Below, one piece after another: positions 26,791 to 39,258 of a DNA stretch of 39,258 nucleotides. The notes under the pieces are model-generated. The model made no database searches and had not been told where the DNA came from. It was given only the letters and a program-made list of their open reading frames with translations. Origin of the DNA: Flavihumibacter solisilvae (GTDB lineage: Bacteria; Bacteroidota; Bacteroidia; Chitinophagales; Chitinophagaceae); NCBI RefSeq assembly GCF_000814475.1, contig NZ_JSVC01000022.1, forward strand, positions 1-39,258, written 5' to 3'. Positions within the stretch are counted from its first letter, which is position 1. Every line of letters starts with the position of its first letter. The position numbers and the translations under genes were made by a program.

Positions 26791-27678
26791 TTATTTTTCC
26801 TGGTAAATTGATTTCCTGAATGCTTCCGGCGTAAGACCTGTGTATTTCCGGAAGAACCTCGTAAAGTACGAACTGTCTTCAAAGTGAAGCTCTGCGGCTA
26901 TCTGCGAACTTGTCATTTCCGCATTTGTCAGCAGGCGTTTTGCTTCGAGCAACACCCGGTCGCGGATCAGCTCGCCGGCGGATTTTCCGAGGAGGTCCTG
27001 GCACAGGGCATTCAGGTGATTAGGGGTGATGTACAATAGTTCTGCATATTCTTTGGGCAGGCGGGTGGTCAGGTAATGTCGTTCGATCAGTTGCTGGAAA
27101 CTTCGCAGCAGCGTATGTTTCTGTCGGGGTATGGGTTTTCGGTTGGTGGACTGGTTGATCCGTTCCGCCAGTATAAAGAATTCCAGCAGTTTTACCCGGA
27201 TAAGGTCCAGGTTCATGCTGGCGTTACCTGTCATTTCTGCCAGCAGGGTTTCCAAAATGGCTATGGCTGATTGTTGTACTTCGGGTGGCAGCTGCATCAC
27301 CTGCGGCGAGCCGGGTCCAAGGAAAAAGCCAAATCGGTCGAGGTAATGCCCGTTGTGCAGGAATGAACTAAACAGTGTTTCGTTGAAATGTACCAGGTAG
27401 CCATCGGTCTCCCCATCGAAGTGCCAGCTGTGCACCTGGCCGGGAATCATGCAATACAACTGCCAGGGCTTTACCGGGTAACGATCGAAGTCGATGGTAT
27501 GGTAACCGCTGCCTTTCGTAAATAGTACGAAGTGATAGAACGAGTGGCGATGTGGCCGGTGAAGCTGCTGGTAGTGCGTTTTCAGGTAGTCGCCAAAACG
27601 CTGGATCAGCAGATCGGTGCTCCCGTTTTTCTGGCTGATCGAACAGATGTCATATACTGGTATTTCCTGCTTTGCCAT
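26791..27678 (-). CDS. AraC-family transcriptional regulator
   Basis: The 295-residue protein has an N-terminal cupin ligand domain (HRHSFYHFVLFTKGSGYHTIDFD, then CMIPGQVHSWHFDGETDGYLVHF) and a C-terminal pair of helix-turn-helix motifs: LPKEYAELLYITPNHLNALCQ and MTSSQIAAELHFEDSSYFTRFFRKYTGLTPEAFRK, the AraC signature. It would sense a small molecule and activate nearby genes. It lies downstream of, and on the same strand as, the D-amino acid operon, separated by the palindromic repeat array, so it may control that operon. Start ATG 27678 (MAKQEIPVYDI). Confidence 0.93.
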   Translation of the reverse strand: MAKQEIPVYDICSISQKNGSTDLLIQRFGDYLKTHYQQLHRPHRHSFYHFVLFTKGSGYHTIDFDRYPVKPWQLYCMIPGQVHSWHFDGETDGYLVHFNETLFSSFLHNGHYLDRFGFFLGPGSPQVMQLPPEVQQSAIAILETLLAEMTGNASMNLDLIRVKLLEFFILAERINQSTNRKPIPRQKHTLLRSFQQLIERHYLTTRLPKEYAELLYITPNHLNALCQDLLGKSAGELIRDRVLLEAKRLLTNAEMTSSQIAAELHFEDSSYFTRFFRKYTGLTPEAFRKSIYQEK

Positions 27679-27774: not shown

Positions 27775-27859
27775 GTGTTTTCACGGTTCTTTACCCGACG
27801 GGTGGCACCCGACGGGTGAGTGCCGACGGGTGAGTGCCGACGGGTCAGGACGGGGTCAG
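27775..27859 (+). repeat. Palindromic 14-bp repeat array with GTGTTTTCAC box (copy 1)
   Basis: GTGTTTTCAC at 27775-27784 is followed by 8 bases and then head-to-tail 14-bp units starting at 27793, 27807, 27821 and 27835, and a shorter remnant at 27849-27859. Units 1 and 2 carry the core ACCCGACGGGT (a perfect palindrome around the central A); units 3 and 4 read TGCCGACGGGT, and the last is broken. The remnant overlaps the stop codon of the M19 dipeptidase gene (27856-27858), so the element begins in intergenic DNA and runs into the gene end. A second copy with the same box and the same 8-bp spacing lies at the end of the window. Confidence 0.9.
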
Positions 27860-28926
27860 GACCAGGCTTTCCGGAGGAAGCGCAGCCAGTTGCCGTGCAT
27901 GATGTTGTCGATGTCGGCGGGCGAGTAGCCGCGGCGACCGAGGAGGGCGGGCAGGGACTGCAGGTCGGCGATGGTTTCGAGGTCGTAGGGGCATTGTTCG
28001 CGGCCGAAGGCGCCATCGAGGTCGGAGCCGATGCCGATGTGCAGGCTGTTACCGGCGAGCTGGCAGATATGGTCGAGGTGGTCGACCAGTACGTCGAGGT
28101 TGCAGTTCATTCCGCGCGGATCAGACTTACCCCGCACCCAGCCTGGGACCATCATCCAGGCATCAAGGGCGCCACCGATCACTGCACCACGGTCGATCAA
28201 TGCGCGGATCATGTCGTCGCCGAACTGGCGGTTATGATTTACGAGCGAACGGCAATTGTTGTGGCTCGCCCACACGTGACCGTTAAAATGATCCAGCGCC
28301 TCCCAGAAACTATCATCGCACAAATGCGTCGCATCCAGGATGATATTCAGCCGTTCCATCTGCCTCAGCAATTCACGCCCTGCAGCACCCATGAATCCCG
28401 TGGCATCCGTTCCCTGGGCATAGCGTCCCGGGCCGTAGTGCGCCGGACCAACGGCCCGCAGTCCGTCGGCCCAGGCTTTTTCGAGATATCCCGGATCAAT
28501 GAGTGAATCAGCGCCTTCAAGACTCAGGATATAGCCAACAGGGCGATCCTGCGGGGAACTATCATCCATCCATAACCGAAGATGGCGTTCCAGCGAATGA
28601 CTGTCGGTAATCTGCACCATTTCACCGGCGGCTTCCATTGCCCGGTACCAGGCTAGCTGTCCTTGAGTCTGTGCCCATGCCTGTGCAGGTGAATGCCAGC
28701 CCGGTAGCGGATTTCCCAGTGCCACGTAGCGCGCGATCTGTGTCGCTACTACAAGCCCGATATTTCCTTTTCGGAGGTCAGGAAGCGACACGACCGCCTT
28801 TCCCCGGTCAGGCTTGTCCGTTAGCCCGGCCTCACGGGCGTTGATCTCCGCAACCGGCTTAACCAGGTCACGGTTCCATTCGAGGGCATTCATGCTGAGA
28901 TCGAGGTGGGCGTCAACAATAAACAA
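27856..28926 (-). CDS. M19 (renal dipeptidase-type) metallo-dipeptidase
   Basis: The 356-residue amidohydrolase-fold protein shows the binuclear zinc residues of family M19: VDAHLD near the start, LSLEGADSLID, DATHLCDDSFWEALDHF, WASHNNCRSLVNH and GIGSDLDGAFG. These enzymes split dipeptides, often with a C-terminal D-residue. I chose TTG at 28926 (giving MFIVDAHLDLSM, the usual family N-terminus), 23 bases after the stop of the upstream gene. An ATG at 28989 is open in frame but adds a hydrophobic unrelated stretch and overlaps that gene by 40 bases. It is the last gene of the operon with the PLP enzyme, RidA and GntP permease. Its 3' end abuts the palindromic repeat array. Confidence 0.92.
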   Translation of the reverse strand: MFIVDAHLDLSMNALEWNRDLVKPVAEINAREAGLTDKPDRGKAVVSLPDLRKGNIGLVVATQIARYVALGNPLPGWHSPAQAWAQTQGQLAWYRAMEAAGEMVQITDSHSLERHLRLWMDDSSPQDRPVGYILSLEGADSLIDPGYLEKAWADGLRAVGPAHYGPGRYAQGTDATGFMGAAGRELLRQMERLNIILDATHLCDDSFWEALDHFNGHVWASHNNCRSLVNHNRQFGDDMIRALIDRGAVIGGALDAWMMVPGWVRGKSDPRGMNCNLDVLVDHLDHICQLAGNSLHIGIGSDLDGAFGREQCPYDLETIADLQSLPALLGRRGYSPADIDNIMHGNWLRFLRKAWS

Positions 28927-28949
28927 AATGAAAAATTTAAAAGTAAAAA

Positions 28950-30056
28950 TTAAATGGACAACCGGCGATCGCGGGAGGTCGTTTTCCACGTGCCGATTAC
29001 ATCATGCGCGGAAACGATGGCGGCGGACTCATGCAAGGCAACTGTTGGACAAATATGATATGGTAAGCCGTATAAAACATCACCAACTTTAAATGAATGA
29101 TCATCGCCGGCTTCTAATACAAGATGCTCTTCGCTTTGCGAAACGGGTCGCAGGCCCGGGGCATTCAGGAAGTACACGCGTTTCGAAATGTCATTTTCAG
29201 CGGCAACTGATTTGTGCCCGAGGTCAACGCAGATTTTACCCGGCGACGGAAGTGAAATCACCCGCGTAAGCACCAGTGCTGCCGGCAAAAATGGCTGTTC
29301 GGTTAATTTGTCCTTGTACCCCTTATCCCAATAGATAAAAGTACCCGGACTGCATTCCACTCCACTGCGGCGCGCATGAATGGGGAATGTCGGCGACCCG
29401 CCTGCAACGATAACCGGCAGACGCCCCTCATGAACAAGCATTTGCTGCAACATAAAAACCGATTCAAAGGCAGCATCGCACCTGCGTGTCCTTTCTTCGA
29501 GTGAAGCTTCGTGGATATGGCCGTCATATACATGCAGTCCAACCGGCTCCACTCCCTGCTGGTGAAAACAATTCATGTAAAGGTCAAATGCCTCACGGCC
29601 CGGAACTATGCCCGTCCGGTTCATGCCGACGTTGAGATCGAGATACACATTAACCTTAACATCATTCGCCATCGCAGCGGCAGACATCACGGCTGCAGTA
29701 TCGCGATTATCGACCAGGCAGGAAAATTTGCTGTTGGGAAATTTCTTGATCAATTCAATAAGCCGAAGGAATTTTGGTCCCACAGGCTGGTATGCAATCA
29801 GGATATCCCTAACCGATGCCATAGCCAGCATTTCCGCTTCGGCAATAGTTGCGCACTTGAATTTCTTTATACCTGCAGCAAGCATCATCATTACCGCATC
29901 AATGGATTTACAGGTCTTGACATGAGGCCGCAACCTGTCAACTGAGTCAATCATATTGATGAGCAATTCAACGTTCTTCCTTACATGATCGCGGTAAATA
30001 ACGAGCGAAGGAGAATCTGGCAGGTCAGCTGCGTCTATCTCATACCATTCTTCCAT
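28950..30056 (-). CDS. D-serine dehydratase / D-threonine aldolase-like PLP enzyme
   Basis: A 368-residue fold-type III PLP enzyme. The N-terminal barrel carries the PLP lysine in LRPHVKTCKS, then KCATIAEAEMLA and VNVYLDLNVGMNRTGI, with HVYDGHIHEASLEERTRR and VAGGSPTFPIHAR on later strands. The C-terminal beta domain has PYHICPTVALHE, an H-x-C pair like the zinc site of eukaryotic-type D-serine dehydratase (D-threonine aldolases use H-x-D). This points to D-serine or D-threonine dehydration rather than aldol cleavage, but the distinction is an inference. It starts 9 bases after RidA, which removes the enamine products such enzymes release. Confidence 0.88.
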   Translation of the reverse strand: MEEWYEIDAADLPDSPSLVIYRDHVRKNVELLINMIDSVDRLRPHVKTCKSIDAVMMMLAAGIKKFKCATIAEAEMLAMASVRDILIAYQPVGPKFLRLIELIKKFPNSKFSCLVDNRDTAAVMSAAAMANDVKVNVYLDLNVGMNRTGIVPGREAFDLYMNCFHQQGVEPVGLHVYDGHIHEASLEERTRRCDAAFESVFMLQQMLVHEGRLPVIVAGGSPTFPIHARRSGVECSPGTFIYWDKGYKDKLTEQPFLPAALVLTRVISLPSPGKICVDLGHKSVAAENDISKRVYFLNAPGLRPVSQSEEHLVLEAGDDHSFKVGDVLYGLPYHICPTVALHESAAIVSAHDVIGTWKTTSRDRRLSI

Positions 30057-38601: not shown

Positions 38602-39138
38602 ATGATTTTGTCGGATAAACGTATCCTCGAAGAAATTGAACTGGGGACAATCAAGATCGAACCATACAGCCGCGAATGCCTGGGCAGTAACTCATATGAC
38701 GTACACCTTGGCAAATGGCTGGCAACCTATAACGAACATATCCTTGACGCCAGGAAACATAACAAGATCGATTATTTCGAGATCCCGGAAGACGGTTTCG
38801 TTCTCTACCCCCATATCTTCTACCTGGGAGTAACCGAAGAGTACACGGAAACCCACGCGCACGTACCATTCCTGGAAGGGAAGTCCTCCACCGGGCGGCT
38901 AGGCATCGATATTCATGCCACCGCGGGAAAGGGCGACGTAGGCTTCTGCGGTAACTGGACACTCGAAATTTCCGTGAAACAACCCGTGAAGGTTTATAAA
39001 GGCATGCCTATCGGCCAGCTGATCTATTTCCCTGTTGACGGTGAAATTGAAGTGAAGTACAACCAGAAAAAGAACGCCAAATACAGCGGCCAGCCAGACA
39101 AGCCGATCGAGAGCATGATGTGGAAGAACCAGTTTTAG
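38602..39138 (+). CDS. dcd: dCTP deaminase
   Basis: A 178-residue enzyme converting dCTP to dUTP for thymidylate synthesis. Family marks: MILSDKRILEEIELGTIKIEPY at the start, GSNSYDVHLG, PHIFYLGVTEEYTETH, the core FLEGKSSTGRLGIDIHATAGKGD with the substrate-binding residues, GFCGNWTLEISV with the catalytic Glu, and KGMPIGQLIYFPVDG. The trimeric dUTPase-like fold is expected. It is divergent from the phosphopantetheinyl transferase gene. A small hairpin CCCGC-AAAA-GCGGG lies in its leader (near 38555-38568). A palindromic repeat array begins 13 bases after its stop. Confidence 0.95.
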   Translation: MILSDKRILEEIELGTIKIEPYSRECLGSNSYDVHLGKWLATYNEHILDARKHNKIDYFEIPEDGFVLYPHIFYLGVTEEYTETHAHVPFLEGKSSTGRLGIDIHATAGKGDVGFCGNWTLEISVKQPVKVYKGMPIGQLIYFPVDGEIEVKYNQKKNAKYSGQPDKPIESMMWKNQF

Positions 39139-39151
39139 GGCAACTAAAAGA

Positions 39152-39258
39152 GTGTTTTCACTGAATTTCACCCGACGGGTGAGACCCGACGGGTGAGACC
39201 CGACGGGTGGGACCCGACGGGTGGGACCCGACGGGTGGGACCCGACGGGTGGGACCCG
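39152..39258 (+). repeat. Palindromic 14-bp repeat array with GTGTTTTCAC box (copy 2)
   Basis: GTGTTTTCAC (39152-39161) is followed by 8 bases and six full 14-bp units from 39170, with a seventh cut off by the window end. Units 1-2 read ACCCGACGGGTGAG and units 3-6 read ACCCGACGGGTGGG. The core ACCCGACGGGT is a perfect palindrome around A, so each unit can form a tiny hairpin. The array continues past the window, so its full length and right end are unknown. It is better preserved than the copy at 27775-27859. Confidence 0.95.

Follow-up and report, generated by a model that had tools for sequence, protein, structure and literature searches.

Two distant loci of the stretch of DNA analysed here (the window, which is the whole of contig C15 with its 39258 bases) share the same left end, a box GTGTTTTCAC followed by eight bases and then by tandem palindromic units, and the question that they raise is what kind of element, if any, is defined by such a layout. 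The two copies noticed in the original prediction are present at 27775 and 39152, and their surroundings contain the following features.

26791..27678, minus strand: AraC-family regulator gene (Pfam HTH_18 and AraC_binding), lying left of copy 1 with its start towards it
27775..27784, plus strand: box GTGTTTTCAC of copy 1 (pattern match)
27785..27792, plus strand: spacer of copy 1, 8 bases (read from the sequence)
27793..27845, plus strand: palindrome array of copy 1, four 11-bp units with 3-base linkers (14-bp period)
27856..28989, minus strand: membrane dipeptidase (M19) gene (Pfam PF01244), whose 3' end lies immediately to the right of copy 1; its start codon is provisional
38602..39138, plus strand: dCTP deaminase-like gene (Pfam PF22769), ending left of copy 2
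39152..39161, plus strand: box GTGTTTTCAC of copy 2, 13 bases past the stop codon
39162..39169, plus strand: spacer of copy 2, 8 bases (read from the sequence)
39170..39258, plus strand: palindrome array of copy 2, six complete ACCCGACGGGTGRG units plus the beginning of another

The array of copy 1 is formed by two ACCCGACGGGT units and then two TGCCGACGGGT units, and that of copy 2 runs into the contig end, which truncates it. Allowing one mismatch, ACCCGACGGGT gives 17 matches in the window against 0.36 expected, a count made on both strands in which each exact unit appears twice. The first bases of contig C14 (L028, positions 1-62) also belong to an array of these GGG-type units; since C14 starts and C15 ends in such an array, both contigs may be neighbours split by the repeat, in which case the transposase gene (RAYT) described below would lie about 25 kb past the end of the window. 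Positions 97-300 of the window hold another tandem repeat, of GCTGCTAAGAAA type with 12- and 27-bp periods, which would be Ala/Lys-rich if coding.

The layout was searched for throughout the window's own genome (G000; 5.41 Mb in 75 contigs). The pattern GTGTTTTCAC-N{4,14}-ACCCGACGGGT occurs at six places, all of them with a spacing of 8 bases as in the window, and its reversed control gives no match in the genome. Tandem units with up to two mismatches are matched 69 times on the forward and 59 times on the reverse strand, places being counted on both strands because the units are near-palindromic, and the control gives no match. Arrays were picked regardless of the box from the matches listed (those with two mismatches in part) and from further loci, those of the gapped pattern included, which gave 37 rows. 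One row whose left flank was too short and seven in which that flank contained an inverted unit were set aside, and 29 direct arrays with a usable left flank remained. Among these arrays, the best match to the box lies at one common offset in 24 of 29 arrays and reaches at least 7/10 there in 23, whereas the largest count at any single offset in 1000 shuffles was 4. Arrays mostly devoid of the box, or freely varying in spacing, the outcome that had been named beforehand as contrary to a defined element, are therefore not what this genome contains. The five exceptions are L009, with a box of 7/10 displaced by one base, L125, with one of 8/10 displaced by two, L011, where a box-like piece is visible by eye and the best match lies elsewhere, and L023 and L025, in whose left flanks no box was found. 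L025, which is the same place as L164, is an unboxed array contained in an open frame of 341 aa and may be an in-frame REP.

The box is also one-ended. At the common offset it reaches at least 7/10 on the GAC-strand end of 22 of 28 arrays and at the mirrored position of the opposite end in 0/28 (one array cut by a contig end was omitted); at any offset of the opposite end a single array of the 28 reaches 8/10. This two-end comparison is the fair test of polarity, the count of box direction (24/26) being biased by 24 arrays preselected as direct. Plain slipped-strand minisatellites matching the box by chance would account for the unit number, which varies from about 2 to 6 or more per boxed array, but leave unaccounted for both a common offset far beyond the shuffles and the lack of the box at the opposite end, and we give this explanation practically no credit; a plain microsatellite was rejected on the same figures (23/29 against at most 4 in shuffles, 22/28 against 0/28). 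Offset and one-endedness beyond chance support the original prediction in its claim of a defined layout, constant at its left boundary and variable in the number of units. The box had also been described as fixed, which is correct for its distance in this genome but not for its sequence, a degenerate one with consensus SSGTKTTTTCACSS.

A-rich DNA lies before the box and a T-rich stretch after it, with the foot TTCA at the end of that stretch; across the direct arrays the mid-spacer shows no conservation and, by column information, the T-rich 3' end of the spacer is the only part kept. A covariance model finds 36 matches at E<=1, the weakest of them doubtful. When four chosen pieces were folded as single-strand DNA, 0/200 shuffles folded as well for each piece. 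The box as a hairpin kept by pairing was rejected, since its stem shows no covariation; 58% of box cells are paired, and shuffles match the observed values. Another 11 clusters in G000 contain inverted units, and by eye the box stands at 8 bases in two of these (L121, L134) and is displaced in two (L128, L135). On contig C10 the box changes direction over a distance of 9.3 kb, and on C75 over one of 18.8 kb, so no strict replication-strand rule is visible and such a rule was discarded.

One of the arrays in G000 adjoins a 191-codon gene matching Pfam Y1_Tnp, the single such match in the genome, and array units are present on both sides of it. The Pfam score of 24.4 is barely above the cut-off of 23, the score of 44.9 with the NCBIfam REP-transposase model is well below its cut-off of 80, and a PDB sequence search with the protein gave no relative up to E 1. 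The motifs NHYH and YIHRNP are invariant in the eight RAYTs that were aligned, and no WQ motif was seen in them; besides that of G000 these were six orthologs from the genus and a single one from outside it, the G005 ortholog being omitted for its in-frame TGA. Twelve of the 15 genus genomes match the protein. Orthologs with 45-56% identity are present in seven of the 14 other genomes, including the interrupted copy of G005; G003, G006, G007 and G008 have distant or partial matches only, and G002, G004 and G012 (an assembly 55% complete) have none. The seven orthologs occupy by eye the same gene neighbourhood as the RAYT of G000, between what look like a carboxypeptidase-like and a gamma-glutamyltransferase-like gene, and each of them is flanked on both sides by palindromes of the same build. 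In G003 a remnant of the RAYT (L180) is present at the shared place as an open frame of 76 aa, and a single hairpin unit lies close to it. Among the best 80 of 446 relatives in named genomes, identity in the best segment is at most 40% and the nearest matches are largely proteobacterial. RAYT-like genes from other genera of the family (L396, L397, L399, L401, L414, L416) have long near-perfect hairpin flanks and not unit arrays, and no repeat block was seen beside L392, the nearest such RAYT-like gene.

The sole Y1 gene lying between two arrays, together with the orthologs of seven genomes flanked by like palindromes, argues firmly at the level of sequence that the arrays are REP-like, a variant of the REP/RAYT system and not a new kind of element. 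The hairpin part thus belongs to a named kind, and the original prediction, which knew of no named element with such a layout and allowed that one might be described, went too far in this respect; this identity leaves the box unexplained. An IS200/IS605 insertion sequence was rejected on the single transposase match, insertion sequences being usually present in several near-identical copies.

If reverse complements are not taken as separate stems, four stem types are found beside the RAYTs of eight genomes: ACCCGACGGGT in G000, G011, G013 and G014, ACCCGCCGGGT in G005, ACCCGACCGGT in G009 and G010, and ACCCGTCCGGT in G001. Stems are not species-specific, since the first type is shared by four genomes. 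The abundance of REPs goes with the cognate RAYT: the eight genomes with a close RAYT (that of G000 or an ortholog) contain 42-144 paired units and the seven without it 0, 0, 0, 1, 3, 5 and 18 (Mann-Whitney p 0.0014), a comparison that favours the former because the paired-unit pattern was drawn from the stems beside those very orthologs. G002 is the exception, with 18 paired units and no RAYT match; no paired units were found in G004, G006 and G007, and one in G003, the genome bearing the RAYT remnant.

REP/RAYT systems (TnpA-REP, 'REPtron') are described for Pseudomonas, Stenotrophomonas and E. coli in the relevant parts of PMC6006769 and PMC3686654. The present system shares with them short extragenic palindromes in tens of copies flanking one Y1 transposase gene, and orthologous RAYTs with differing REP classes in related strains; it differs in the 11-bp units disposed in direct head-to-tail arrays, in the extra box at a fixed distance and in the lack of a GTAG-type foot. 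Neither the GT[AG]G nor the CGTC foot of described REPs is present, the conserved foot being TTCA, so a canonical GTAG or CGTC REP was rejected and the arrays are filed as a REP-like variant. The CGTC-tagged REPs that PMC3733652 describes, in the section concerned, from some Bacteroidetes are likewise palindromic and extragenic, with 8-9 bp stems; they have no adjoining transposase according to that section, whereas here a transposase gene adjoins the arrays and the CGTC tag is lacking. With the Bacteroidetes subclass 2.6 of TnpA-Y1, characterised in the corresponding passage of PMC6006769 by 'atypical secondary structures' and the motifs NH[LIV]H, WQ and YIH[QN]NP, our system has in common a Y motif of the form YIH-NP and atypical palindromes that adjoin the gene and recur at other places of the genome, but NHYH, YIHRNP and the absence of a visible WQ do not agree with the motifs of that subclass. 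Subclass 2.1, to which the same source assigns NH[YF]H, a C-terminal HTH-like domain and, in the passage devoted to it, no REP-like sequences, is matched by the NHYH-type HuH motif and by the best-listed matches in named genomes, largely proteobacterial, where this subclass prevails; the palindromes found here set our system apart. REPINs and BIMEs, the subject also of PMC3116915 and described in PMC8049555 as inverted unit pairs that fold into a single long hairpin, resemble the arrays of G001 and G002, which are of inverted-pair type, but not those of G000, mostly direct (29 direct arrays among the matches listed against 11 clusters with inverted units). For the TnpA-REP of E. coli, PMC6006769 reports that the REP hairpin is recognised in single-stranded form and is the place of cutting.

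The placement of the arrays with respect to genes, obtained with crude ORF calls (ATG, at least 90 aa), was analysed for 27 boxed arrays. Left and right gene senses are -- in eight, +- in eight, -+ in five and ++ in four, and two arrays lack one neighbour; thus 8/25 lie between convergent and 5/25 between divergent genes. A fixed sense relative to genes was rejected on these mixed senses, and the position by gene 3' ends that had been put forward holds in part but is not general. At 10 of the 27 there is an ORF of the same direction whose end is no more than 25 bases from the box or slightly overlaps it. The strong hairpins and these ten ORF ends would suit a transcription terminator or an RNA element of 3' UTRs, owing its spread or maintenance to selection and not to transposition; such an explanation is quite improbable in view of the mixed senses, the five arrays between divergent genes, the association with a RAYT and an Rfam search of five loci that gave no match.

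The box extends beyond the arrays of G000. In the 15 genomes SSGTGTTTTMACSS has 118 matches, some boxed arrays and coding sites included, against 13 for the reversed pattern, and it is also present in G004, G006 and G007, genomes without paired units; across the genus the box occurs as well without any hairpin array. Conversely, array flanks in related genomes seldom carry it. The flanks examined belong to 20 loci of G001, 15 of G002 and 5 of G005 (loci being drawn from the listed places, 50 of 67 in G001, 18 of 18 in G002, 1 of 1 in G003 and 6 of 42 in G005), and a box of at least 8/10 is found in 1/40 flanks of G001 and 3/30 of G002, one of these four at the offset of G000, and in 0/10 of G005. 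A box constant at REPs genus-wide was therefore discarded, being rare at the flanks of G001 and G002 and having no fixed offset there; the proposal of a non-autonomous mobile element fits a REP served by a RAYT, without the box as a constant part across the genus. The box-plus-hairpin pattern with up to two mismatches matches 17 places in G000 and six in the 14 other genomes (two in G005, two in G014, one in G009 and one in G013). Beside RAYT genes, the top box match is reached by at most 2/60 shuffles at 8/16 loci of the genus and 4/26 outside it, a weak scoring, several of the eight genus loci overlapping the hairpin foot or adjoining no array.

Gene context was available for 49 SSGTGTTTTMACSS sites, of which 13 lie inside ORFs and one has no left neighbour; from the 35 others five array-linked rows were removed (L189, L200, L232, L333, L342), leaving 30, some of them mutually orthologous. 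Only one of these 30 non-array intergenic boxes with two neighbours lies between convergent genes, against 8/25 boxed arrays (Fisher p 0.0077); orthologous sites among the 30 are not independent, and p is 0.0098 after removing three apparent orthologs. Six of 87 sequence contexts of SSGTGTTTTMACSS resemble one conserved coding site. Some solo boxes (L353, L365, L344, L309) are preceded at a small distance by a pair of GTGAAAC sequences. In G006, 3/11 box matches are followed after 4-5 bases by 11-bp GGTCGGAGNCG arrays, unrelated to the units of G000, and an array of this type with a box-like flank stands beside the distant RAYT of that genome. The box-preceded GGTCGGAGNCG family comprises L342, L358, L364 and L177 (G006). 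At L179 the box directly precedes an 11-bp array beside its RAYT, at L182 it is on the outer side of the array, and at L177 and L182 the T-run of the box-like dyad is on the other strand.

These observations bear on whether the box belongs to the element at all. It could be a pre-existing host operator or promoter motif, a GT-N6-AC dyad at a set distance from which REPs insert or survive, and in that case a target and not part of the element. The excess of SSGTGTTTTMACSS over its reversed pattern, also in genomes without paired units, the rarity of solo intergenic boxes between convergent genes, the spacers that vary although the hairpins are near-identical and the unrelated arrays preceded by the box in G006 are all consistent with a host motif; however, operators are not expected between convergent genes, where 8/25 boxed arrays lie, and to the right of the arrays the sequence does not, by eye, resume what follows solo boxes. 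We regard this explanation as possible but doubtful. It is unlikely that box, spacer and hairpins travel jointly as one miniature element, as the original prediction had it. The 8 bases and the polarity, both fixed in G000, the same layout at a site shared with G005 and the single copies in G009 and G013 (the latter with the stem type of G000, the former with another) would fit with it, but spacers next to arrays that are nearly identical have little in common except their composition, most REPs examined in G001 and G002 have no box, and solo boxes are common.

Sites shared between species add a further aspect, the change of stems. Six pairs of sites are matched on both flanks between G001 and G002, those matching on one flank only, among them L445/L424, being omitted; stems differ in four pairs, by a change of the central base pair of the units (CCGGACGGG vs CCGGTCGGG), and agree in two. 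In one of the agreeing pairs the flanks are 99-100% identical, which suggests recent exchange. At the intergenic site L123/L218, shared by G000 and G005, the box and the 8 bases are present in both and the stems differ (CCCGACGGG vs CCCGGCGGG). By eye, other shared sites vary in the box itself: compared with G000 it is shifted by about one base at L027/L441 and on the other side at L122/L266, at L020/L420 it is absent from the relative, and at L134, L437 and L217 G000 and G005 carry it on opposite sides, with no box in G014. Different stems at one site could also be explained by loss and re-insertion. Different REP classes beside orthologous RAYTs are described for Pseudomonas and Stenotrophomonas in the part of PMC3686654 on this subject; in the open-licence PMC literature we found no report of stem change at other shared sites, and no paper on RAYT/REPs in Chitinophaga or on concerted REP change.

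Taking all this together, we consider it likely that the arrays are REP-type elements of the RAYT, a Y1/HUH-type single-strand DNA transposase encoded by one gene at a fixed chromosomal place, with hairpin processing, in-place replacement and the box as a second recognition site. The hairpin TTCACCC-GAC-GGGTG would be read in single-stranded DNA on the box-carrying strand, and cutting and joining at the hairpin by the RAYT would spread the hairpins and change the number of units. Hairpins at existing sites may be replaced over time, by which most sites of a genome would come to share one stem. In this mechanism the box would mark the 5' side of hairpin processing, acting as a second recognition sequence (for cutting or as target) of the RAYT or of a partner protein, related to GTGTTTTMAC, which also occurs solo in the genus. 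For the box this is the most likely role, which we place only narrowly first on account of its one-ended fixed spacing and its copies between convergent genes. A different and rather improbable role would be that of a bookmark dyad, at which the RAYT or a partner keeps and rewrites arrays at fixed addresses; a change of hairpin preference would then lead to overwriting in place while the box and its distance stay, and the same dyad would also serve unrelated arrays of other RAYT lineages, such as the 11-bp arrays of G006.

RAYTs, widespread transposases of settled appearance, are not known to have a defined use for the host. The box ties the REPs described here to a motif that is present on its own near genes in the genus. 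Furthermore, sister species that have one RAYT address and a fixed box but differ in stem at some of their shared sites constitute natural variants for the study of recognition by the enzyme, and the same variants bear on whether the RAYT rewrites hairpins in place.
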